A DNA stretch of 64,000 nucleotides from Polytrichum commune (lineage: Eukaryota; Streptophyta; Polytrichopsida; Polytrichales; Polytrichaceae). Within the stretch, counting starts at the first letter, position 1. Every line of letters starts with the position of its first letter. The stretch covers positions 21,408,527-21,472,526 of the forward strand of contig OX485808.1 of assembly GCA_950295325.1 (NCBI GenBank). The letters are read 5' to 3'. The notes under the pieces are model-generated. The model worked only from the letters and a program-made list of their open reading frames with translations. It did not search any database and was not told the origin of the DNA. Positions 1,788 through 46,632 of this stretch are shown in pieces. The position numbers were made by a program, and so were the translations under genes.

Positions 1788-3867
1788 TTGATTGGTTGTG
1801 GCCAAGATCTTGTCGAACGACATTACAAATCCAAGTGTGCGAGTTATATCCAACTCGAAGACGTGGAGACAAAATGGAAATTTCTAACAATATTTAGAAA
1901 TATCTCCAATTTGGGAAGATGGTCCAAGAGTGCAATTATGAGGTCTGTGACATGTATGATGTATGCGGAGCACGTGTTGCAAGTAAGAGTGGATTGGTCA
2001 ACTCTGGGTGCTCTGAACAAGAAGAAATTTGGGGGTATTGGAATTGCATTCACTAAGTGTGCAGTTCCAGATATTCCATACACTCCCATTCCGTAGTGGT
2101 TTAGGAGGAATCCCAGACTAGTGAATGAGCCTAGGATCCCAATTCCAGAGGGTCGGAAACTAGAAAAACCACGTCGTCTTGGTCGAACAAACAATGATAT
2201 GGAGAGGGTAATCGATGAGGCGTTTGCAAGTATGGATGACGGCATGGAGGATATGGAAGACCAAGAGAATATGGCAGAAGTTGAGGTTAACAACTTGGTC
2301 AACGAGGTGGTTGACGAGGTAAACTTTGGTGAACTTGGAGCGGATACGATGGAGATCAGAATGGATGAATTGCATAAGCAGCATGCTGAGAAAATTCGTG
2401 AGTACAAAGCAAAGATTCTCGATTTGGAAAATCAAGTTGCAACACTTACCATGGGGGAGGCTGGCAGTTCAAGTAGTTCACCAACAGACATGAACCTTCA
2501 GTCTTTGCAAGCAAAGAGGGACACAGCTTTAGAAGAAGCCATGATTACAAAGTCATAAGCTTTGGATGTTTGTACGATGAATCAAATAATGCAAGAAAAG
2601 ATGGAGGCTTTGCAAAAAGAGGCGGTGGACATGCAGCAACAACGTCAAGTGATCAATGAAATTGTTGTTAATTACAAAGCCAAGATTGACCTTGACGTTC
2701 TTGGTCAACTAGAGGAGCAGAATGCGAGGCTGAATAAATTTCAGTTGGAAGCGATTGTGGATCGCAAGAATATGAGGACTGGCACATTGTTTGCTATGGC
2801 AAAGGTCCGTCAATTTGAAGCTTAGTTTGAGAGCATCCAGAAAGAATGGAACCGCAATCAGAGAATGCGGAACATGATGCTCACGTCATGGCCAGAAGAT
2901 GAGCAGATGTACCCTAGTAGGTGGATGAGAATAGAGAGTGGACATTGCCAAACAGAAGCATTGATTGGCAGCAAGTGTCTGATGAAGATCACCATTGGGA
3001 TGTGGAACAAATGTATAAATATCCATTCCACATGACTGGTGAGAAGTTATGGCCAAATTCATATACAATGGTTTCAGACGGATCCGTATGTGCGATTTGC
3101 CAATGTCCATTTGGCCCAGAGGGATGCGTTCAAATTGGATCATGTGGGGCCCAATTCCATCCACAATGTCTAATAGGGAATATGATCAAGAAACGCCAGT
3201 ATCCTCATTGTAGATCATCTTTTCACCCTCGTTTGTACCTCCAATTTGGCCTTCGGGATTACATGCCTAACGTGTGGGTGTTAAAGCCTAAAGATTTTAC
3301 CTTCGAACTTCAAGAGTTTGATGGGGAGAATGTTGAGTGGAGTTGGTTATATAATTGTGTTAGGTTGAGCTATGGAACGAGAACAAGAATAGAGCATGGA
3401 CACGGAATGCACGTCTAATTACGTATGCTGCAGATGAGTTATATCCCAACAAGCCCCCCAAGCATGGCTTGAAAATATTTTTTTACCAATCTTTTGGTTG
3501 ACATTGGGATATAACAAACAGACAATTAAAGAGAGGTAATCATCCTCATTAGTACAATGCAGCAGGTCTCGAATCAGTATCGGAGCATGATTTGGAACAA
3601 AATGCAGATGACATGCCCATGGAACGGGATCCGAGACTTGAATTGGAATTGGAGCAGGGGTACCACCAGAACATGCTACAGTTGAGTGCAATTAATGCAC
3701 ACTTGCATAGACTTACGGATGATGCGGTTTTGAAATGGCTAAATGGTGGGCCTAGACCACGTAATGCCGTTCCATTGTCTCCTAGAAGTCGTCCATATTT
3801 CACCCGTGGAGTAACGCGAAGCATGAAAGGTGCAAGGGAATCATCACGAGCACGACGGCAGTTTTGA
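1788..3867 (+). pseudogene. Decayed transposon-associated gene with coiled coil and RING-like finger
   Basis: One long coding-like frame, now broken. In-frame stops stand at 2094-2096, 2556-2558 and 2823-2825. The frame shifts near 2915 and again near 3385, and two more stops occur at 3499-3501 and 3550-3552. Translation through the breaks gives an N-terminal part, an acidic segment (about 2220-2340), a long heptad-like coiled coil (about 2345-2825), a RING-like segment (about 3085-3225) and a basic tail. The RING-like part keeps CAIC, SCG and FHPQC but has Ala and Tyr where the central His and the penultimate Cys would be (YPHC), so zinc ligands are missing. I do not recognise the family. 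It faces the hAT transposase gene tail to tail, so it could be a second gene of the same element. Confidence 0.55.
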
Positions 3868-16820: not shown

Positions 16821-19358
16821 CGCCGAGATTAGCCTCCGTCACGACACAATAGACAACCCTGATCCGGGCCTTCAATCCTTGGACCTCGTTCACGTGTTCA
16901 AGGCGGATCAAGTCTAATTCCCGTTCCTATTTTGACTTGCATTTCGCCAATCTCGGCCCTCAATGCCTCCACCACGTCATTGTCGGCAACTACTAATGGT
17001 GGTGTTGGAACCTCTGATCTCATCTCCACATCAACTGGCAAAGATGGTGGACAAACCAATCATGATTCATATTGTAGTGTCATGTGAATTCTTTGTCACA
17101 TGGCAAGTGGTTCAATAGGAACCCCTAACACCTCATTTGCATCGTTGAGGTCTATGCGGTTGGAGGGTGGACTTCCTAGAGGTTGGTGACATGTGATCGG
17201 AAGGAAATCGAAATAAGCTTGGATCATCGAAGGGATCATTGGAGGTTGCCTTGCCAATGGGATTGGTCGGCCAACATTTTGGCCTAGCATGGAACTAGGT
17301 ACGACCCTACTTTGGCGCGTTGCCCTCAAATCTATGTTGGTACGTGGCATGGTTAACCAATCAATATGTAAGCCCAAAATGAACTCAGCATACGCCATTT
17401 AGTACAACCACATGAGTTTATTATAGCTCAGGTGACTTTATTGTGTGCACTGCTCTTTCCAATAGATGATGTCATTTACCTTACCATGACTGGTAGCCTG
17501 ACATTATCCTTTGAGTATATCATCCAACTAGATACTTATTAGGTCAGGGAATAAACTAAGTGGCTAATTCACTCTTGACCTCTCTGCTAATACTCCACTT
17601 ATTGGTACCCAATAATACCTTATTTGTAAAACTTTGTATTTTGAGTAGCTTTTGTTGCTCACTCTATGCTTTATCCTATTGTCACGATCCTTCCAATATT
17701 GCTCACCTTCAAAATGATTGTGCTACCGGTCCACATACCATTACTTCACCAAACTTGTATCCATCATGATTAACTACCATCACATTTATCCTCAAGTCGA
17801 ACTTCCTTATACTATGACTATTCAACATCCTCAAGTTCTTCTTGCCTCCTCATACGTTTCCAGCTCTCTTAGTCGTATACCACTATCTACCATGTTCCAA
17901 GTAATCCATACCTTAATACACCTCAATTCATGCTTGCTGAATACAAATTTGAAGGAACACTCAATCCTATCATTCGACACACACCATCAAGATAGATCTC
18001 CTCATTATTACTATAGAATTCTTCTCTACTATCCATACTTGGAAAACAACTTCAACACACACTCATTCCAAGAGATAACCTAGTATATATTCTTCATTTA
18101 AAAACTGGTCCCAGAAAAATTGTTCCTCTTCACCTTAAATCCCACGCAAGTCCCAACCTAATCCTACTTTCTATCCTCACCAATACATAAAATTATGTTC
18201 CCTTTTTAATGGAACCTTCTATCATATCCTTACCTAATCCTCTTTTTTAATCCTGATCTACTTATTTTTTCCCTTCTCTTACCATTGGTAAAAATACGAC
18301 AATTTTGACCGTTAATAGGGTCCAAATTTTATTTTAAGCTAGTTCCCACCGTCCAAGTCTTACCCACAATAGGTACTAGGTATGAATGCCATGTATGTTA
18401 GTCCTGACTTACATGATCTCATTGTTAGCCAATGCATTCTAATTTCCACTTTTACTCCTCTACAAGGAGAGTAGGCTCTTCTCGCCAATTAGAGTAATGA
18501 TTCTCGTGATGACATTTGAAGATGCAATTTTCTAGTCTTATTTTAGACAATGTTTTGGGTGATTCTCAAATGTTCACCAAGATCCCGTTTCATTTGTATT
18601 AAATTAGTGACCACCATGAGGTGAATTGGACTCTTGGGAGAAAGTTGACCCAAAGTTGGTAACAATGAATTCTTGGAGCGTTGATTGTGATTAACCTTGT
18701 CACTTGTATGTGTTTGGGTTTCAAATCATCGCTTTGGTTACACTAGGTATTCGACTAGAGAGAGAAGATGGGCTCCACCCGACAAACTCCAAATACATTC
18801 CACATTGTTTTTGCCCACCGATGATTGAGAGATGGGTTCAGTCAAAAGTCGGGCGCGGGAAACAAAACTGTAATTGACATGCCAGATCTCGTCGATACCA
18901 GTTACAGGACAGTACAATATTTAAGTTCCATCCAAATCTAATCATTCTGAGTGATTAGCTATAATTAACTCCCACTAAACCTTGGGTAATTGCTGATTTT
19001 GACAGAATTACAATGATCTGTAATTAGTACAGTGAGTATGTTCCATCACTTAAGATTCTGTGCAGGAATTGAATGGCATAAGCAACCAACCAGCTCAGCC
19101 TCAAAGCACTTCATGTGATTGTTCGGCGGCTTTTTCCTTCAAGTACAAATTTCGTCTTAGGTCAAATCTAGATACCTAAAAGTTACCTAAACTCTGCTCT
19201 AACCTCAGCCTGGGCCTCATACACTGTGTCTCACTGCAGAGCGCAATTCGGCGGAGAGCACTCTCTTGCAGGTTTTTGTGCAGAAGGGTGAATTTTGATT
19301 GCCACAAAACACCAGCTCACAGGCCTCAAAGCACTCCAAGTTATTTGTTCAGCTCCTT
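16821..19358. other. Long stretch without a recognised gene
   Basis: A 100-codon - strand frame (17096-17398) has no motif I recognise and is proline-rich. The 17.5-18.3 kb part is C- and T-rich on the + strand. The last ~400 bases may include 3' leader sequence of the DUF688-like gene, since a probable 3'UTR exon would begin near 19370 on the - strand. Confidence 0.45.
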
Positions 19359-19956
19359 GGTGGCAATTATCTGGAGAACTGCAAGGGTCAGCATCTTTGG
19401 TAATCTAGTTTAGAGCTGCTAAAACATTATTGAGAATATTAGTTTGAAGTTGTTTATGTATCTTAAGACTAAAGATTTTAAAGATATTCTAATTTTCTTA
19501 GAATTTGGAAAAAAATAAATGACTTAGCAGAGGGTGTAGATAGGTAGTCTGCTTCAGAAAAATTGCTTCTAATTAGTCTAAAAGGATGTTTGAAGGAAAA
19601 AAAAAAAACTCAAATTCAGACCCAAACCAGAGCATTGGATTCCTGTAAATGCCCTCTTTCCGAGCAAATTGCCTCTGTTTGTAAAGTAACAAGAACATGA
19701 AGTATCTAGGATTCTCTGAAGGTGAAACACCTCTGCCCAATATCTAGGATTCTAGTAGATGTACCACTTCCACTAGTTGCACCATCTACCATTTTCCTAG
19801 ACATTGGGAGAGAGGTAGATGCACTTCTTGTTAAAAAGTCAACAATTGATTAAAAGCATTACCTAGAAGTGCTTTTAAAGGGAATGCCAAAACAAATGGT
19901 ACAAAATACATCATAAAATGAATGTTACAGCTGTTCCAAAGGGAAGAGTTGCTACC
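19359..19956 (-). mobile_element. MITE copy C: probable 3'UTR intron of the DUF688-like gene
   Basis: Member of the GGTGGCAACT family. Read on the - strand it begins GGTAGCAACTCTTCCC just after the stop codon and ends CAG then ATAATTGCCACC. That gives a usable donor (GAG, then GTAGCA) and acceptor (CTCCAG, then ATAATTGCC), so it could be removed as an intron after the stop. Flanking 10-mers TCAGCTCCTT (19349-19358) and TCAGGACCTT (19957-19966) match at 8 positions and may be a decayed target duplication; the right one overlaps the stop codon. The interior aligns with the other copies. Confidence 0.65.
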
Positions 19957-19965
19957 TCAGGACCT

Positions 19966-22900
19966 TCAGCGGCTCTTCCAAGTAAGGGGACGAGCAGACT
20001 TGGTGGAAGCAGGATATCCAATTCCCTTCGCCTTTGACTCCCACTGAGCCACCAAGCTCATCACTGACTTTGGTGGGGCAGCCGCTGATTTCAAGCTAGT
20101 GGAGGATGTAGTTTCCGTTGCGAATATATCTGGAGTATTAGGATGCTTTGCGTGTATACTAACATTGCCTGTGCCCGACATTGGTCTATGTGGAGCAGCA
20201 TTCTGTGTCATTTGGTCCTGATGATGTTTCCGTACTTGGGAACTATTTCTCAAAGATGCCGAAATTTGTGTGACATCGTCCTTAAGGGTGGCAACTATCT
20301 GTAGCACCAATAAGAACTCCACATCTTTAGAACTGGGTTTGGAGCTGCTTCAACATTTTAAAGAAGCATCATGATTTTGAAGTTGCTTTCATATTTCAAC
20401 CATTTTTAAGATTACAAATTTTAAGAAATTTCTATAACTCTTCTTTATAGTGAATATACATGCGTACTAAACTCGGAGTCTGGATGGCAACCCATGCTTT
20501 AGGAAAACTGCTTCTAATGAGTTTTAGAAACAACATTTGAAAGTGCAAACCTTTTCTAATTCAGACAAAATTAATGCTATCCTCTTTCTAAGCATGTTGC
20601 TCCTTTTTGTGAAAATTTCATAATTCATCAGTTCATTAGAAGCCCATTAAAAGTGATTTAGAAATGATTACTGTTCTCAAAGGGAGAGTTGCCTACCCGG
20701 GCGTCATCCACCGCAAAAGAGCTCCTAGGTGACTCATACGTCTGCTCATGCTGGAGCTTGAACTTCACCAAGGGAGAAGATTTTATTGTCTCCTGTGACA
20801 CAACCCATGACGTTACAACTTTCGGCGGAGTAGAAATCATGGAGTCGAACAAATTATTATTATTATTGACATCTGATGCTGTTGATTTGAGGGAACACCG
20901 GCCTGAAATGACGTCCACCTCCTCGATGGATGTGCTGTAACTTTGGTCTGATGGTTTTTCATCTCTAAGGTTGGAAAGCACAGCTGGAGACTTGAACCAC
21001 ATGGATGGAGCCTTCAGCACTTGACCCATCCAGCTTGATGCTCCAGCTTGGGGGCAGCAATTATCTGTAATATTAATACCAGCCATTACTTTGTTAAGCT
21101 AATGTAACATGTGCTCCCATACGTGGCCCACAAAATAAACCATATAGATTGGTGCTCGAATCACTTAGCACAAAGTCTAATATTCTCACATTTTCGATTG
21201 AATCTATAGATAGAGGGGATTGGAGTGGTTTCTGTGAAGTGCATGGATGTCCTTACAGAGGAGTTCTAGAGCTCATTACCTGTCCATGATGAACTTCAGG
21301 GCCCTTGGGTTAGAAGGGGAGACATCCTACAAACACATGATGATTTTTGCTATAGCATTATAAAGTACCTAAGAAATGCTTATTTATAATTAGAAAATGT
21401 CGATTTACTAGGTTGTCCCTCCTTATATTGGTTTTGAAATCAGAAAAGGTAGATTTACTGGGTTGTCCCTCTAGGTTATGTTTTGAACCTCATGTTTTTA
21501 AACCTCATATGGAGCTGGTAAACCATTTTCAAGAAGCGCTATTAATGGAGCTTTCAATTTTGTATTCTAAGCATCCAAGTGAAGAGTCAAGACTACAAAT
21601 CCTCAGAAATTTTAATCAACTTCCTTAGAAGTGAAACTGATTACCTAGGGGGTCCTGGATGGTGCCAACCCATACTGCTTCTAGAATTGCTTCCAGAAAC
21701 AATATTTGAAAGTGTAAAGCTTTTCCAATTTATACACAAATGATAATCTCAATGGGTTCCTTATCTCAGTGCCTGCCATCTTTCCCTAGCATGTTGCTCC
21801 TCTGTATGACATAACAAACCATAGATCAATTCAATAGAAACACTACTATAATAATTTTAGAAACAATTACTGTTCTAGAGGGGAGAGTTTATGATGTCAC
21901 CTGCATTTTGATCCCCCGCATGCACAGCTGGTGGCAGAACGACCGGTTCCTTGATCTGTTCCGGAGGATAAATTGGTTGCTGATGATGATTCTCCAGTTT
22001 CAGTGGATCTTCCTGAGAAGGCACGGAGTTGTTGCGAAATTCTGATGTCAAGCTCCGTAGTTTCGAGGGTGAGTATAATCTGCTACTGGACATCCTACTG
22101 GAGGAATTTGGGGAAATTAGGTCACCCCCACCACCCAGAGCATGAGAGGAGTCCTTAGGTGACGAAGAATTGCTTCCTGCAGGAGAGATTCGGGGGGAGG
22201 TGGTTCGAACAGATTTGGAGAGTTTCCTTGCTTCACCTTGTACAACTCCAGGATCTCCTGCTGTGGGCTTAATCTTATTAGCATGAGGTGTCTGTGAAGA
22301 TTCGTCATTGAGTTTGGTTGGTAAGGTAATTCGTTGCTCAACCTTGCTGCTGCTCCGCAGCATAGATCTTCGTGAAAGCTCGGAATGGCCATGATTCGAC
22401 CTAATTGTTGGCGACGTCAAGGACTTCTCGGAGACTGAGTACCTTTGATTGAGCTGCTGCACCTTGCTGCTTGGATCTGACATAGCCTCTGAATCTTGAT
22501 GGAGTAATTCTTTGGTGGTGGAATTGCTACCTCTTGCAAACACCACATCAGGTGTAAAATTACCATCCTGGTGCTCCCTCTCGGCGGATCTCCACGTTGT
22601 CAATGGATCCTTGGAATTTGCAGAGTTGCAGAAGAAAGAAACCTTTGATGTAGTCCGTTGATGTGGAAACAGCTCAGCTTCCTGAGCTTGTTGTTGCGAC
22701 AGCTTCAATAATGTTGGTGAAGAAGATGACTCCTCGGTGTGATTGGAAAGTAGGATGGGGTTAAGGTTTGATGAAGATGATCCAGAGTAGTTTCTTCTTG
22801 CACTCAAAGAGTGTGGCGATGCAATTTCCTTAAGTTGACTTGAAGAATTCGATCCATCCAGTGTCTCAGTAACGAGTTCCTCGTTACCGTCTGAGGGGCA

Positions 22901-24346
22901 GAGAGAGATTAACATGTTGGCCATAAACTTGCAGCTCGGCTGGTGCTTCTGCCCGAGCTGTTGATGATGATCACCATTTTCTGCCGGGAAATTGAGACAA
23001 GCGTAAGGATCTGCGACATGATGATGTGATTTTGCTGCACCACTCGAGATGCAACCCAAACCTCGTGATGAATTGGTATCAGGTGAAGAATGAGAGCTTC
23101 TCGAAGTATCATGTCCTGAAGACGAAGCAGAAGTGGATTCATTGATGGCAGTACTCGAGGTGTGCAATTCAGACAGATCTGATTTCTTCTCATCTGCTTC
23201 AGAAAGAGAGGGATTCTTCACAGATGACAAGGTTAATGACCTTGTGAGGGATTTTCTGCGGGAAGATGAAGAAGAAGGATGAGGTCGGCAACCACCTCTG
23301 TTCAATTTCTCTGAATGATGAACCCGTGGAGATCTTACACCAGGAGAAGTACTACCACCCTCAAAGTGAAAGCACTTTCGGATATGAGGACGGTTCCTCC
23401 GCAAAGCCGCAATCTTTTTGCTCAATCTTGCTTTTAATCTCTCTGCAACTTCGCTCTCCTGTGAATTAGTGACATCCAAGTATTCAATCCTCCCCTCCTC
23501 CTCACCGCTCATATTACCTGCATCCCTTGAATCTCTCCTACTAACCCTCCCTGCAGAACTGAATTGTTGTTTACTGGGCCACCCCAGTAGTTTCTTCAAC
23601 TTCTTCGGTGCGTGGAGTTTCCTTGGATCTCTTGGCTTGCCGGAGCTTTCATAAGCTTCGACAGATTCAGCTGGCCGGGGGTATTGCAGATAGAATCCAT
23701 CTTCTGGTCGTCTTCCAGGGGGAAGTGGCAGCGGCTCATCTCTTTCATCATCCTTTGCTACTTCTAGTTGCAACAAATCGTCCATTGCATGTGATTTGTT
23801 TACCGGAGGCAAAATCACCGGAGGTAACTCCACTAAGTCGGTCAAAGTTGCAGAAGCATTTCTCCGACCGGAAGCGCAATTATTAACTTCCATAACTGCA
23901 GGGTTGAATCTGGTACTAACCGGTCGTTCGGATCCAAAAAAATTCTGCTCGGCGAAGTCAAGTTCCCCATCCGAGCCATAAGACTGCGACCTGATGATTC
24001 CCTGGGGGGCAGGGTTCCTGACGAGCTTGTGTCCCCAACTCTGTTTGGAGGGTTTAGTGGGGGCCGCATCCACACTTGAGTTTGGGAAGAGAGGGCCAGA
24101 GAAACTCTGCAGATGAGATTGTTGTAAGATCCTTCGGCCGGGAGGCAGAGGTAGAGGGCTTTTGTCGACAGAGGAGGTTGAGGTTGAGGTTCTCTTTGAG
24201 ATGGAACAGGACTTCGGCAGGGGTTTAAGGGGTTTGCCTGGGGCGGATTCCCAGTTGAAGGCCACCATTGTAGGGACAGCTCCACAGTAATCTTCATCGA
24301 AAGATGCGGAGGACACTCTCGCCATTGAATGCCGGATCATGATCAT
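19966..24346 (-). CDS. DUF688-like plant protein, three coding exons (about 1048 aa)
   Basis: Coding exons 24346-21901, 21064-20697 and 20298-19966 join in phase at GT-AG sites to give one open frame ending in a TGA at 19966-19968. The start is preceded by a 3' splice site near 24365, so the 5' leader is spliced. Near residue 30 is VAFNWESAPGKP, resembling the PF05097 DUF688 hallmark (PFxWExxPGKPK). Two PLPPGR boxes (about residues 65 and 200) and one basic KLHAPKKLKKLLGWPSKQ block follow, and most of the remainder is Ser/Asn-rich and probably disordered. The C-terminus (SLVAQWESKAKGIGYPAS) looks folded. Family members are plant-specific and of unknown biochemical role; I infer none. The join at exon 2/3 gives DDAR-IVATL. 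Each of the introns is built from the same repeat family (separate entries). No premature stop is seen, so it looks functional. Confidence 0.75.
20286..20700 (-). mobile_element. MITE copy A coinciding with coding intron 2 of the DUF688-like gene
   Basis: The intron (20696-20299 on the - strand) starts GTAGGCAACTCTCCC and ends GGTGCTACAG, with exon 3 beginning ATAGTTGCCACCC. GGGTAGGCAACT and the inverted ATAGTTGCCACCC are the element's terminal repeats. The donor therefore lies inside one end, and the last ~13 bp of the other end form the first codons of exon 3. The interior matches copy D at 37680-38082 over most of its length (for example GGAGCAACATG and GTTTGCACTTTC). Confidence 0.8.
21065..21900 (-). 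mobile_element. MITE copy B coinciding with coding intron 1 of the DUF688-like gene
   Basis: The intron begins GTGACATCATAAACTCTCCCC, homologous from AACTCTCCC onward with intron 2 (AGAACAGTAAT, TTTCTAAA, GGAGCAACATGCT). It ends TATTACAG, followed by exon 2 beginning ATAATTGCTGCCCC, a diverged form of the ATAGTTGCCACCC end. It is about twice as long as copy A because of roughly 400 extra bases near the acceptor side. The donor-side inverted repeat is decayed. Confidence 0.7.
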
Positions 24347-24399
24347 GAGTAGTCAGCAATCCCCTGTTAGGAAAATAAAATGTCAGGAAATCTTCAGAA

Positions 24400-37231: not shown

Positions 37232-40200
37232 TTACCTGGGTGTCACATTCATGTTAGTCCCACTCATGAGGTCACTTGTATCTGCACTTGAAGTGAACTG
37301 ATAGCTCGTTGGTAAGTAGGCTGGGTCCACACGGTTTGAGGGTGCCAAGTCCAGAGAGAAAGAGTCTGGGAACATTTCGGCGGTGTTTCGCGCAATTTCT
37401 TCCAAGTCACGCACCACTTCAGCCATGTTTGGGCGCGCGTCAGGCATCTCTCGGCAACAACTCACAGCTAATCTCACCAAAGGTTCAAGTGTCTCAGGTG
37501 GGCAGCGTCCCATGCGCGGGTCTATCATGGTTGCAAACTCTCCAGTGTCGTAGTTTAGCTTTGCCTGACAGATCACATCAGCAAGAAAACCAATATTTAA
37601 ATGTTTCACAATGTATAGAATGTGAATGGTGCATTGCAAAGAAGGCAGGCCGAGACCTTCCGTCACCTGTTTAAGAATTTCCGGGGTGGCAACTATCTAT
37701 GGTACCCCAATGGCCCAGCGTCTTAAAAGCTCGGTTTGGAGTTGTTAAGACACTATTCAGAAGCATGATGATGGAGCTGCTTTCGCATTATTAGCATGTT
37801 TTAGACTACAAAATATAACAGGTTTTCTAAATTTTCTTAGAGGTTTTCTACCCACGCTGTCTAGATGGTGGCCCCTGCTTTAAAAAAATTCTTTTAATTG
37901 GTTTAAAAAACGATATCTGAAAGTGCAAACCTTGTCTAGTTCACGAGCAAGTCGTATCCATGATTTCCTCTTTACAATCATGTTGCTCCTCTTTGTTTTG
38001 CTCAATTCATGTGAAGCATTAGAAGTGATTTAATAGCCCTTTAGATACAATTGATACAAAAAGGGCGAGTTGCCACCCCAGGTAAGAATTATGCGTAGCA
38101 GACTGGTGTACCTCTCGCACAAGGTTCTTGCCCTTATAAATTGGCTGCAGTCCCGTTATGAGCTCCAGAAGAACCACCCCAAAGCTGTATACGTCACTCT
38201 TATCTGTCAGCTTGTGAGTCAGAAAGTACTCGGGGTCCAGGTAACCCTGCATCGACATCATATTCTTCATTTAGTCAATCAAATAATGCAAATTCCAGAA
38301 TGGAAGTACACTTTGATTATTGATTACTTGTGTCCATGTACATCACATGGGGTTTGAGCAGGTCATATGAGAACCTTCCTGGAATGATCAGTGCAATCAT
38401 CTCTTTCATCTTCAGTTCATAGTCCTAACATAAATTATATAGGTAAGAGAAATTACAAACTGCAAAACCAGACACTAATCAACATGCTGTAGAGTTCTTT
38501 GGGTGATTAAACGGGCACCGAATCCAACCAAATGACAAGAAAATGGGAAAGGTACGAGTGAAGGTTGCCAAAGAACTGTATAATTTCCATTTCACACAAA
38601 CTTGAAAAGCCAGAACCTGGTCATGAAACAAAAATCGAGATTTCTGGTACACAAACTGCCATGAGTGGAAGGGAGCTTACCGGAGTGCCCTTCACAACAG
38701 TTGAGACATGACCAGGGGTAGCACCCTCGAGGTCTGGGACAGGTGCAAGCCGTGACAGCCCAAAGTCTGCGACCTTGGCTACCTTCCGAGCATCCAGTAG
38801 TATATTGCTCGCCTTGATATCTCTATGAAATATAGGTGGATCTGCTTCTGTGTGCAGATACAAAATTCCTCTGGCTGACCCAAGTGCGATCCGCACTCGT
38901 GTGGGGAAATCCAAAGGAGCTTCTGACATTGCTGCAGGACACAAAATGGTGGGCAGCAGTCACCTCATATAAGTCACATTCTAATTAGAAGCAAACACTA
39001 GTACCTAATAACATCTGTACAGGGGAGTTCCTTCAAGGAAATTACAAAATTTTCACCAAATATTACATCAAATATTACTGCAAGCCGAGAAAACTGAACT
39101 AAGGCTCTACATGGATGACTGCTTCCTCCTGTCTACTCCATATTGGGTCCGTAATACTTCAGCGCGCCAAAGAAACACTTCTAAGACTGTGCTATATGAT
39201 CAAGAGAATGTTCCTTGAGATAACTTACGCGATAGATGATCCCGTAGTGTGCCGCCAGACATAAACTCATACACCAACATCTGTATGAGCACCCACTTGG
39301 TTATATATCAATTGTGCTGGAATCAAAATGTATTCAGTATCTATGAGTCGCAAGTAACAAGCAGCCAGAAAATTTGAAATGTAGAAAATGTCAGGCTACC
39401 AGAAGATTACACACCTGCTCGCCAACGTCATCACAGTAACCTACAAGGATGACGAGATTACGGTGATGAACTCGAGACAGCAGTTCGATTTCGGTGTAGA
39501 ACTCATGGGCACCTTGAAGTGAGCCTTCCTGTGCCCGCTTGATAGCTACCAATTGTTTACCACTGTCCAAGTTGCCTCTGTACACCTTGCCGTATCCTCC
39601 TTGACCAATTACGTTCTCATCACTGAAATTGTTAGTCGCACTGGCCAACTCTTCGTAAGAGAAGGCTCTGACTCCAGCCACTTTCAAATCTGGATGTCTT
39701 TTCGCCGTTACTGCCACGAGATGCCAAAGTAGCTGTTACCACTCAAAACTTTATTTTTCTTTCACAATCTGTAAGCTTATGGCAGTGGAATATGTAAGAA
39801 AGGGCTCTCAACCCGGAGTTTTTAAATGTAGCTCCCAACAAGCTTTTATATTTACCAAGCTTCTAAGAATCCTTCTTTGGACACTTTCTGGACTAAAATA
39901 GAGATCATGGTCGCTTTTAAAAGCATGGTTCTTCATGCCAATTGGCTGTGCAGTAGCCGGCAGACTCCAAATTCTTTCTTTTTGGATTTATGAACATACA
40001 CTACCAATGTTAGGAGACGTAATTTCAAGTTTAGAGCACTTACTGCGAGCTAATTGTGCTCGTATTTGAGCAGGTGTTTGCTTGCGCCGATACAGTAGGA
40101 ACAACAAGAGGCATGTCACGAGAATTGCGAAGATGGCGACGCCCAGCACGATGCCCGCTATCGCTCCTGCTGACAACCCCTTCTTCGATTTCGTACCTAC

Positions 40201-43200: not shown

Positions 43201-46200
43201 TTTTCAACGTCAAATCACTCCGTCTTGCAACACTAAATACATTGCATCTGAACTTCATTCCTTCTGACGACAGAATTGTAATAGGAAACCTCAACCAAGG
43301 AACACACCAACACCAGGGAAGAATAGGTTGGATATGTTGACTTGGTGTGAGCAATTTACTTACATATGAGGCCTGAGTTATGGGCACTTTCAGATCCATA
43401 GCGGATAGCACTTACATGATGAGAAGGTTAGGTGCATTGTGGATCTCCATGGGCAATTCTCCAGTTATTTGATTGTTGTCCAACAGTCTGCATAAACGTC
43501 AAGGTATAAAATTGGTACTCTCGAGAAAGGCATCTCAAGCTAGTTTGCAATACCTGCTCTGCCAATTCAGTCAGAGAATGAATCCGCTCCTCATCCGTCT
43601 AAATTCCCTCCATACTCGAAGAGTTATCCTAATATTTCATGCTTTCAAAATCATCGCAAGAAATGGATATAAATGACAGGTGAAGGATGTCGTACATGTG
43701 GACAACATTTGGGAGACTGCCAAGTTCTTTTGGAATGCTGCCATTCAGACTGTTGTTGTTCATGTGCCTGCCTCCCACAATCATGTTAGCGTCAGTGTCC
43801 TTGTGATCGAAATACTGGAAGGCTAGGCATTGCACTTTGATTAGCACCACATAAGAGTTAACGCACTGGAACAGTTTTGTTACAAGACGAAGACGACAAT
43901 TAGACTTAACGTTAGAGGATATGTTTTTGCAGTTGCACAAGGAGGAGTTTAGAAATCTATTGTGCTACACATCTGCAGTATAACAAAGTATCTACGACAC
44001 TTTTATGGAAGTTCACAGAATTTAACAAGTCATCGTGAGTTCCTTACAGATGTTTTATATTCGTCAGTCCACCAAACGTATTCGGAACTGGTCCTGAAAT
44101 GTTATTCTGGTCAATCTGAATCCTGTTCAATTTCGACAATGTCCCAAGCTCCGGGGGCAAAATACCAGTGAACTGATTTCCATTCAGCAACCTGTCAAAA
44201 TGCCATTTTTTTCTTCAAACGCCAGACATACCAAAAATACAGCCCACTCATCATGTACGTTAAGATTTTTTCTGTTTTAGATGCCTCAAAAATTTACATC
44301 TAACTAACTGCATACTACAGTTGAGCAACTATGATGTGGTTTTTGTCTCCACACTAATCTGCGAGAGAAAAAACTTCATGAAGGCAGACAAGTCACTATT
44401 CATTCACTCAACAAGCCAGAGAAACACATTTCATTCACTGGAAGTAAATATTAGACGTAGGTACATGGAGTATGGACATCGAATCCCCTCCCATACCTCA
44501 CTTAAGTGGAAGACACCTTACTCTCAGCAACTGAAAAATCGAACCCACAGCCTTCATCACAGATGTACAAATTTCAGGGTCGAGGATGTAAGGTTTGAGT
44601 GTCTTACAGAAGGTACAGATTCGTCAACTTGGAAAAAGATGCTGGAATGCTTCCAGTCATATGGTTCCACATCACGTCCCTGAACACTTACAGAAATGAT
44701 CTCGGAGTTATGCAAAGACACTTCATAAATGCCAGCCACACCAGATCACAATAGTGGGTGCAACACAGTAGACCAGAATCTCGAGTATCTCAATTGAAAC
44801 AAGCTTTAGGATAAACAACTAGCAACCGAAAATTCGAACTGTGCAGAAGATTTCAAATTCAGCGGGACAAACTGAGTTGATGTGCAAATTGCAATGCTCA
44901 CAGGTAAATAAGTGAAGTGAGGTTTCCAAGTTCGGGTGCCAATGTGCCGCCAAGGTTGAGCCCGAACAATCGCCTGTAAATAGACATACAGTATATCAGC
45001 CACGGGGCGTGGTCTTCCCATGAGAAAAAACGAGTCATGAACAGGCTACGCACCTTTGATTTTTGCCCAGGGTGATAACCCTCACCCTTATAACAGTTGT
45101 TTCTAAATCACTTCCAATACTTCTTATGTCTTTATGATTTGTTATTTCACAAAGAGAAGTGACATGCTTGGAAAGATGTCCAAGAGGGCATTGAGAGGAA
45201 TCTATTGATTCAATTTGTCTCCAAAATAGAAAAAAATTGCACTTTCAAATGTCATTTTAAACAACCAATTACAAGCAACATTTTTAAACAAGGGGCACCA
45301 TTTAGACCACCTAGGTATTAATTGTCACTTCTAAATATATATTTTTTTTAATTTCTTTAGAAATATATATGCTTATAATGCAAAAGCAGCTCCAAAATAA
45401 TGCTTCCTGAAAACAGTTTAACCTCTCCAATCCAAGTTCTAAAGACGGTGACCCCTGGGAGTACTACAGATAGTTGCCACCTGGAGTTTTTTAAACTAGA
45501 TGGCGAAGATTTTAATTTCCGGATGATGAAAATTATGCTGTAGCTTAAGCTATACATTCCAACGAACTGTGAGTATAAACGTTATGAGCAACTCAATAAA
45601 GCTAAATCCAATGGCGAGGGTAGAGGAACCTACAACTCCGTGACAAACGTGATATTGCTAGGCCCCGAGGGTGATGAACAGAAGACGTAACTCCAACCTC
45701 CACAAGGGTTGTTGTCTTTCCAGCTAGCCAAATTATTACTCGGGTCTTGCAGAGTCTGGTGGAACGCTTGCAGGGCCAGAGCTGCACACATCAGCGCATG
45801 CATCACAGATAAAACTTCAACAGGAGCTTACAGCAATGTACAAAGGTGAATGAACTCTGTCCGGAACACCAATTGCATCTAGTTGTCAAGACATTTTAGA
45901 TTGATGCCCGCATTTATGATCTCAGCGTTGTTCACATGACTTATTTACCAAAATTACCTGGGAGCAGAAGTAGGGCTAGGTAACCAGAATACTCTGTTTT
46001 CTCGACGCTAAAGTACTTCTTCCATCGCCACAACACGAACGACACGAGGCGATGATCACACAGTTTAGAGAAGACCATATCCCCCTTTATTATGGATTTT
46101 AAGACACTAACAACTAATGTACTGGAAATGAAGAACTGGATTTCTGACTACTAGTAGCTTAGAAGTGCACGGACACTCCATCGCTGGACATACAGGATAC

Positions 46201-46632
46201 GGTGCTCTCATGAGCAAACAACGTGCTAGGCGCAAACGAGGGAGAATACTTTCCAAGCCCGGGGTGGCAACTCTTCTTTTTAGAACAGCCCTGTTCTTCT
46301 CTTCTAATGTACATCAACAATTTGGACCTCCAAAATTTTTTTTGAGAATTTATAGTGAGCGAAATTTCTTAAACAAGTTTCCAAGTTTCAGTACTGGAGG
46401 TCTTTCTCAATAAACCCAATGTGATGTAGAACAACGCTTGTGGTGTGTCGAACAACACTGGCCCGAACTGCTTCTGTGCTGTAGTACCGGGGCTGCAGAT
46501 AAGAACTTCATAGAAACATTTACGAAAGGATATGGTGGAGATGTACTTACTGTCCGTGGGGTTTGTTGTAACACTCGAGTAAGTGACGGGAAGTATCAAT
46601 AATAGCACCAGCAACATTCCGAACCTCGCCAT
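37232..46632 (-). CDS. LRR receptor-like serine/threonine kinase, LRR-VIII type, 20 exons
   Basis: Plasma-membrane receptor kinase. Exons: 46632-46551, 45781-45634, 44973-44902, 44679-44608, 44191-44048, 43767-43696, 43487-43416, 43154-43077, 42721-42653, 42403-42332, 42136-42065, 41777-41682, 41440-41366, 41105-40657, 40196-40044, 39710-39415, 39280-39229, 38931-38681, 38246-38112, 37564-37232. They sum to 2793 bases, 930 codons plus stop, with every phase consistent. Protein: signal peptide (1-20), LRRNT (about 28-76), about 11 LRRs (to 374; several exons are exactly one 72-base repeat), a juxtamembrane ectodomain with [13 protein letters not shown] and FGPYELLSF (375-524), one membrane span (about 535-557), and a kinase with [21 protein letters not shown] and ADFGLS, so an RD kinase with catalytic residues present. 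It is closest in memory to the Arabidopsis At1g06840/At5g01950 group. An in-frame ATG six codons upstream (46650) is an alternative start. The ligand is unknown. Confidence 0.92.
37680..38082 (-). mobile_element. MITE copy D in the last kinase intron, exact 8-bp target duplication
   Basis: It is flanked by TAAGAATT at 37672-37679 and 38083-38090. The ends GGGGTGGCAACT and the inverted AGTTGCCACCCC are intact. It lies 29 bases after the 5' splice site of the intron between exons 19 and 20 and accounts for most of that intron. This is the best-preserved member of the family that also makes up the DUF688-like gene's introns, and it identifies the family as an hAT-type MITE of about 400 bp. Confidence 0.9.
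45068..45489 (+). mobile_element. MITE copy E in a kinase intron
   Basis: The left end CAGGGTGATAACCC is decayed; the right end CTACAGATAGTTGCCACCTGG is well preserved. The interior aligns with copy D (AAATCACTTC, TTGCACTTTCA, GGGGC(C)ACCAT(T/C)TAGAC). It is inserted in the opposite orientation to copies A-D, inside the intron between exons 2 and 3. Splice sites of that intron do not coincide with its ends. Confidence 0.75.
46257..46510 (+). mobile_element. Partial MITE copy F in kinase intron 1
   Basis: Starts CGGGGTGGCAACTCTTC followed by TTTTTAGAACAG, as in the family's left arm. The right end is only loosely similar (GCTGCAGATAAGAAC) and the interior is shorter than in other copies. No target duplication could be assigned. 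Confidence 0.5.

Follow-up and report, generated by a model that had tools for sequence, protein, structure and literature searches.

Introners are families of similar introns, many of which come from DNA transposons with terminal inverted repeats (TIRs) and target-site duplications (TSDs) (Gozashti et al. 2022, PMC9860276). Some introners bring the 3' splice site with them and find their 5' site in the target, and those of Aureococcus add codons, i.e. 4 bp of the element together with the 8-bp TSD (PMC9860276). A survey of 3,325 genomes, also cited in PMC10487979, reports introners in no land plants, as far as the consulted parts of PMC9860276 extend. A 2012 review (PMC3443670) sets out a model in which a transposon carries splice sites near its boundaries, and its Table 1 gives 35 events, from Oryza, Drosophila, Oikopleura and Zea. 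Among the matches listed for introners, introns made by miniature inverted-repeat transposable elements (MITEs), land plants and mosses, no title or abstract opening points to an introner family in a land plant, the subscription literature lying mostly outside this search. Here we analyse a 64,000-nucleotide stretch of contig OX485808.1 (assembly GCA_950295325.1; hereafter the window, with positions counted from its first letter), in which a gene on the reverse strand has two predicted coding introns, and a candidate third intron past its stop codon, made up of copies of a single MITE family.

Our data suggest that this is a hAT-like MITE whose right end holds a usable 3' splice site and which occasionally acts as an introner, a reading that we regard as fairly probable. 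The wider claim, i.e. that a land plant, probably a moss, harbours a true introner family in which a hAT MITE with a built-in 3' site repeatedly made introns in the coding sequence of unrelated genes, among them a WRKY gene, a bHLH gene and, twice over, the window gene, is one we would accept only slightly more readily than reject. The nearest plant precedent is given by the maize Ds/Ds1 elements, which are reportedly spliced as introns (work ascribed to Dennis in 1988, Wessler in 1991 and Giroux in 1994); those too are said to be non-autonomous hAT elements removed from plant exons by splicing, as is predicted here. Those, however, are reportedly single mutant alleles, whereas here several apparently long-established predicted introns occur in several genes. 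The present introns share with the introners of PMC9860276 their mutual similarity, TIRs and TSDs, an element-borne 3' site and added codons; they differ from those described in its consulted parts in that the host is a land plant, many of the copies sampled do not form introns, the family itself is old (median divergence 17.6 %) and intron 2 adds 30 nt. The model of PMC3443670, with introns from transposon insertion and splice sites near the element boundaries, fits as well, but the part of that review drawn on here describes no plant genome in which several introns stem from one MITE family.

In the mechanism that we propose, the right end of the MITE, read in one orientation, would provide a ready-made 3' splice site (TGCTACAG|ATAGTTGCCACCCCGGG), and a copy landing in a coding exon in that orientation could be removed as an intron. 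With the 3' site supplied by the MITE, the 5' site would lie either in the left terminus (GG|GT or the mutated GG|GTAG) or at an exonic GT just upstream. Two of the three frames would run on through the leftover right-end bases, adding a few codons; the consensus right end contains TAG in the phase-2 frame, and splicing of the consensus from GGG|GT to ATAG|TT would add 6+13+8 = 27 nt, stop-free in all frames. For the window gene, this would mean insertion into coding sequence at intron 2, which is the most secure case, and probably at intron 1, with a third copy overlapping the stop codon. A profile of the family, built from 58 copies, has 417 model positions and the inverted termini CCCGGGGTGGCAACT ... 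AGTTGCCACCCCGGG, and a single nhmmer search of the window with it finds all window copies, including the element at 37680-38082. The homology of the three stretches, asserted in the preliminary description, is directly observed (194, 298 and 140 bits for intron 1, intron 2 and the post-stop copy, respectively), except that one of the shared words, GGAGCAACATG, occurs in introns 1 and 2 but is missing from the post-stop copy.

The case is clearest for intron 2. The MITE copy forming it lies at 20282..20701 on the reverse strand (nhmmer match 20701-20286, 298.0 bits), and the predicted intron runs from 20696 to 20299 (398 nt, phase 0; CGG|GTAGGC ... CTACAG|ATAGTTGCC). The predicted 5' site, GTAGGC, falls within the left terminus of the MITE, as had been recognised before; 5 nt of the element (CCCGG) are left in exon 2 and 17 nt (ATAGTTGCCACCCTTAA) in exon 3, and non-MITE intron sequence remains on neither side. 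Both target-site copies are coding, i.e. GGATGACG upstream in exon 2 (20702..20709, reverse strand) and GGACGATG downstream in exon 3 (20274..20281, reverse strand). They are identical at 6/8 positions in exact register (chance of 6/8 or better, 0.0093) and both read Asp-Asp, the two differences each being synonymous. Deletion of the MITE and one TSD copy restores an empty site that is in frame (...SSFAVDD|VTQISASL...), and the insertion lengthens the predicted message by 30 nt (5+17 from the MITE, 8 from the duplication) with the frame kept. The duplication and the restored frame are plain observations, from which we infer splicing itself and the making of the intron by the insertion; on this sequence evidence, the generation of intron 2 by the MITE appears well supported.

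Intron 1 is made up of a MITE copy at 21048..21900 on the reverse strand, of which model positions 12-375 align at 21889-21496 (193.8 bits). The predicted intron extends from 21900 to 21065 (836 nt, phase 1; CAG|GTGACA ... TTACAG|ATAATTGC), and the right end of the MITE supplies the predicted 3' site and, with ATAATTGCTGCCCCCAA (21064-21048), the first codons of predicted exon 2; this end lies outside the profile alignment and is a pattern match only, with 3/16 mismatches. The retention of the element's end as the first codons of exons 2 and 3, which had been proposed from the letters, thus agrees with both predicted junctions. An insert of ~410 bp (about 21495-21086) interrupts the copy; three partial genomic matches to it (21086-21495) are about 80 to 130 bases long. 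That intron 1 was generated by MITE insertion is plausible from its sequence, and the earlier proposal that the element made introns in this gene accordingly stands for intron 2, with its TSD in both exons and its restored frame, and for intron 1 as plausible only.

The third copy, split by an internal insert, occupies 19354..19961 on the reverse strand (nhmmer matches 19961-19824 and 19692-19355; 139.8 and 18.7 bits). Its insertion site overlaps the stop codon, with a TSD of 6/8 at an offset of 1, i.e. GCTGAAGG (19970-19963) and GCTGAACA (19353-19346), and no other of the five window copies has diverged as far. A 3'-UTR (untranslated region) intron at 19955-19371 (585 nt; GAG|GTAGCAAC ... CTCCAG|ATAATTGCC) is possible, and putative splicing at GAG|GTAGC would place the junction 10 nt past the stop. 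An open frame also reaches a sense MITE copy, as with this post-stop copy, in a bestrophin-like gene elsewhere in the genome (L171:1195-1890, L043; Pfam 7.7e-38).

The window gene consists of three predicted exons on the reverse strand: exon 1 (21901..24352), a long open frame with its first ATG near 24346 and ending in phase 1; exon 2 (20697..21064, 368 nt), flanked by a phase-1 and a phase-0 intron; and exon 3 (19966..20298), which closes with TGA at 19968-19966. Once spliced as predicted, the three exons form one open frame up to this TGA. The exons are coding in character: under a codon model trained without the window gene, exons 1, 2 and 3 score 0.116, 0.138 and 0.103 per codon, no other frame of any exon exceeds 0.055, and introns 1 and 2 are negative in every frame. 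The chance of neutral survival without stop or indel at a divergence of 0.195 is 0.0004 for exon 2 and the same for exon 3, and at half that divergence 0.0064 and 0.0118, respectively, an estimate that assumes divergence from the consensus to equal time since insertion. The name DUF688-like, given to the gene in the preliminary description, finds no support, as the protein matches no Pfam family at E<=1 and the gene is absent from the 15 matches of DUF688 (PF05097) in the genome; the label therefore rests mainly on a short NWE.APGKP-type motif, the main likeness between this protein and five members of the DUF688 family encoded in the genome (best blastp E for each, 0.002 to 0.41). One DUF688-family gene (L124:3150-3483) has an open frame that stops, at 3157, inside another MITE copy.

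A genome search for family copies whose ends coincide with introns yielded further predicted cases at L145, L067, L153, L060 and L089. Together with intron 2, all of these predicted introns end at model position 400 (CTACAG|) and begin between model positions 1 and 29, those of L067 and L153 carrying inserts; they match one another with pairwise E down to 3.7e-26, in a comparison where four of the sequences were one base short, and the in-frame junctions at the five loci are in phase 0 or 1. At L145 (L166), the MITE has an open frame on either side, of 477 and 465 codons, and a predicted 222-nt intron (CAG|GTGGTA ... CTACAG|ATATTTGCC, phase 1 on both sides) would give a spliced frame of 891 codons. 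At L067 (L167), the frame reads ...CNSPKLRQ / NSPKRQLSG... in phase 1 (predicted spliced frame, 308 codons), with a candidate TSD of 7/8 (AACTCACC / AACTCGCC) whose difference is synonymous, both copies reading Asn-Ser-Pro. L153 (L169) is a WRKY gene (Pfam 5.2e-11) in which an AAG|GTGAGA 5' site just ahead of the MITE would be joined to the MITE 3' site in phase 1 (predicted 248 codons), and L089 (L119) likewise would pair GAG|GTAAGC ahead of the MITE with the MITE 3' site in phase 0 (predicted 549 codons). The bHLH gene at L060 (L118; Pfam HLH 1.2e-8) has a perfect TSD (CACTTCAG, 8/8); its empty site leaves the frame open over 79 + 148 codons, and two alternative splicings keep the frame (predicted spliced frame, 298 codons).

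Introners have been delimited by at least four similar introns in non-paralogous genes, with similarity bounded near the intron-exon borders, and by TIRs and/or TSDs; the predicted introns present the former, and the family has the latter. The same anatomy at other loci suggests a property of the family and not a peculiarity of the window gene. L101 (L168), where the MITE supplies the predicted 3' site of the last exon and about 320 nt of intron 5' sequence lie outside it, is kept as a 3'-site donor only; a paralogue, which we take to be IDD-like, matches across the junction at the protein level with 39 % identity and 3 stops inside. A reading of L089 as a heat-shock factor found no support in Pfam.

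In the genome searched (408 Mb; seven large contigs of 42 to 78 Mb, with gene families of plants), end patterns with at most 3 mismatches gave 285 right-end and 249 left-type matches, and the reversed-pattern controls 1 each. Among 154 loci examined for MITE copies (L004-L117 and L126-L165), 87 copies were counted complete, including those of the window, where the intron 1 and post-stop copies were placed by hand. In the 82 complete copies outside the window, TSDs in fixed register match at 8/8 in 11, at 7/8 in 5 and at 6/8 in 9 (null probability of at least 6/8, 0.0093); with offsets up to 3, 14/78 copies show 8/8 vs 0/2000 mispaired controls. Duplications of 8 bp plus such termini indicate the hAT superfamily. 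The earlier assignment to a hAT-type MITE has thus held, and a hAT-like family appears supported by both TIRs and TSDs. The family is old: the median divergence from the consensus is 0.176 over the copies, with 0.195 for intron 2, 0.241 for intron 1 and 0.341 for the post-stop copy. Two further copies lie in the window, i.e. the reference copy, inside an ordinary intron of what by eye is a receptor-kinase gene (37680..38082, reverse strand; nhmmer match 38082-37681; TSD AATTCTTA, 8/8), and a full-length one at 45066..45486 on the forward strand (nhmmer match 45066-45484), next to a fragment found by the profile search at 46258-46378. Five copies and a fragment within 27 kb (19354-46378) are far denser than 285 right ends in 408 Mb predict; nested or adjacent copies are also seen at L051, L068 and L102.

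Several observations weigh against the MITE as a maker of introns. At the window gene, the intron 1 copy has a decayed left end, as first described (the profile match starts at model position 12), the best TSD match there is 5/8 with offsets allowed, unremarkable against the null, and a paralogue search of the whole genome returned the gene's own three exons only, with no empty site seen. At L145, L067, L153, L060 and L089, the 5' sites were picked so as to keep the frame, and a convincing TSD is absent at L145, L153 and L089 (4/8 each); that of L067 is weakened because the protein is repetitive (SPK repeats). At L060, a downstream ATG could serve instead, and the upstream 79 codons alone would be open by chance with P 0.04 to 0.19. 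L145 comes from 20 loci (L126-L145) chosen among the matches listed for GTA-type 5' sites, a set that is mostly chance, since 4/20 carry the MITE (L126, L132, L134 and L145). Paralogue searches returned self matches only for L145 and L060 and, with a concatenated query, for L067, L089 and L153. More generally, many MITE copies are not introns, and the coding neighbours of ordinary intronic or gene-adjacent copies lie, by eye, on both strands.

The genome-wide controls are mixed and partly belong with these objections. In a scan for coding sequence flush with MITE ends (131 right and 108 left ends with enough flank; model trained without the window and L089 genes), right ends at a score of at least 6 gave 9 sense calls (2 from the window) vs 3 antisense, where two of the antisense calls, at L153 and L145, mirror the sense frames of the same loci; at the stricter scores of 8 and 10, the figures fall to 6 vs 3 and 5 vs 2, respectively. 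Left ends gave 12 sense calls (3 from the window) vs 4 antisense at a score of at least 6, with L060, L145 and L045 called in both senses, and 10 vs 1 and 9 vs 1 at scores of 8 and 10; the sense calls at L044, L045 and L069 are exons ending slightly upstream at ordinary 5' sites. We also asked, for 93 copies (three segmental duplicates dropped; 500 shuffles), how often the flanks of the two sides pair up in a single open frame. For all copies, 14 pairs were observed at 40 codons (shuffled mean 11.84; reached by 127 shuffles), 12 at 50 (7.10; 10), 6 at 60 (3.48; 41), 6 at 70 (1.98; 4) and 5 at 80 (1.55; 3), these last five being introns 1 and 2, L060, L089 and L145. Without the window copies, the corresponding values are 12 (10.17; 119), 10 (6.12; 19), 4 (2.71; 131), 4 (1.52; 30) and 3 (1.04; 35). 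Therefore, there is no excess at 40 codons in either set, and the test is strong only with the window copies included. Furthermore, 9/87 complete copies, including intron 2, reach a 5' splice-site strength of 6/9 within the terminus (intron 1 was not scored), and the copies in the window gene do not stand out by their 5' site scores.

The alternative already raised in the preliminary description, i.e. that MITEs entered older introns and filled them to their edges while the splice sites moved into the MITE ends, has a real example in this genome. At L024 (L170:2287-2752), an ABCG-type gene (Pfam ABC2_membrane_7), the MITE extends from the 5' splice site to near the 3' site of an intron that must be old, because two paralogues, on C7 and C5, are interrupted by an intron at the corresponding position, which ruled this locus out as an intron gain. 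Some other copies occupy ordinary introns, and the decayed left end of intron 1, with no convincing TSD, would suit such filling as well. It fits poorly with intron 2, where TSD copies and 22 nt of the MITE lie in coding exons around an empty site that is in frame and no residual non-MITE intron sequence is found, and with L145 and L067, where coding-like open frames are flush with both sides of the MITE; we consider it unlikely, if far from negligible.

The gene might instead be broken, the protein stopping in intron 1 just past GDIINSPL and exons 2 and 3 being unused remnants behind the MITEs. Exon 1 alone is indeed an 825-codon frame that enters the MITE, and exons 2-3 find no Pfam family, but their coding codon usage and their open, phase-matched frames despite about 20 % MITE divergence make this improbable. 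Multiplication of a single MITE-bearing intron inside the gene, by tandem duplication or intron transposition, would account for the shared orientation of three copies in 2.6 kb. The five window copies, however, are 57-70 % identical pairwise, with copies on other chromosomes at least as close and their nearest relatives lying outside this set, so that they look like separate insertions, as do the intron 2 and post-stop copies in particular because their candidate target sites differ; we therefore regard such copying as very improbable. The insertion of a MITE with its own 3' splice site is thus the reading we prefer.

Other copies lie close to splice sites without being flush with them. L012, L044, L045, L054, L069 and win_37 were considered as flush introns and rejected, since by eye ordinary splice sites lie outside the MITE. 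At L012, L044, L045 and L162, sense copies begin within about 25 nt after a good 5' splice site, judged by eye, in ordinary-looking introns of what are presumably a lectin kinase (L012), peroxidases (L044 and L045) and an ion-channel-like gene (L162); insertion preference or the recruitment of exonic GTs may explain these close 5' sites. As for the neighbouring genes, we take those in sense to be CHS, CHAT, BTB, carrier and peroxidase genes, and those in antisense WNK, RCC1, ABCG, laccase, peroxidase, KAI2-like and PR-1 genes. The CHS fragment has its matches among chalcone synthases and related type III polyketide synthases (PKS), and the nearest solved protein to the KAI2-like one beside L116 is Pp-KAI2-like E (2e-50), which we assume to be from the moss Physcomitrium patens.

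Introners are a leading candidate for mass intron gain. If our reading is true, a MITE that resides mostly outside coding sequence and makes an intron when it lands in an exon would explain how plant introns are gained one at a time. Such a family could escape surveys based on groups of annotated introns that resemble one another, and the aligned cases would allow the recruitment of 5' and 3' splice sites to be traced.

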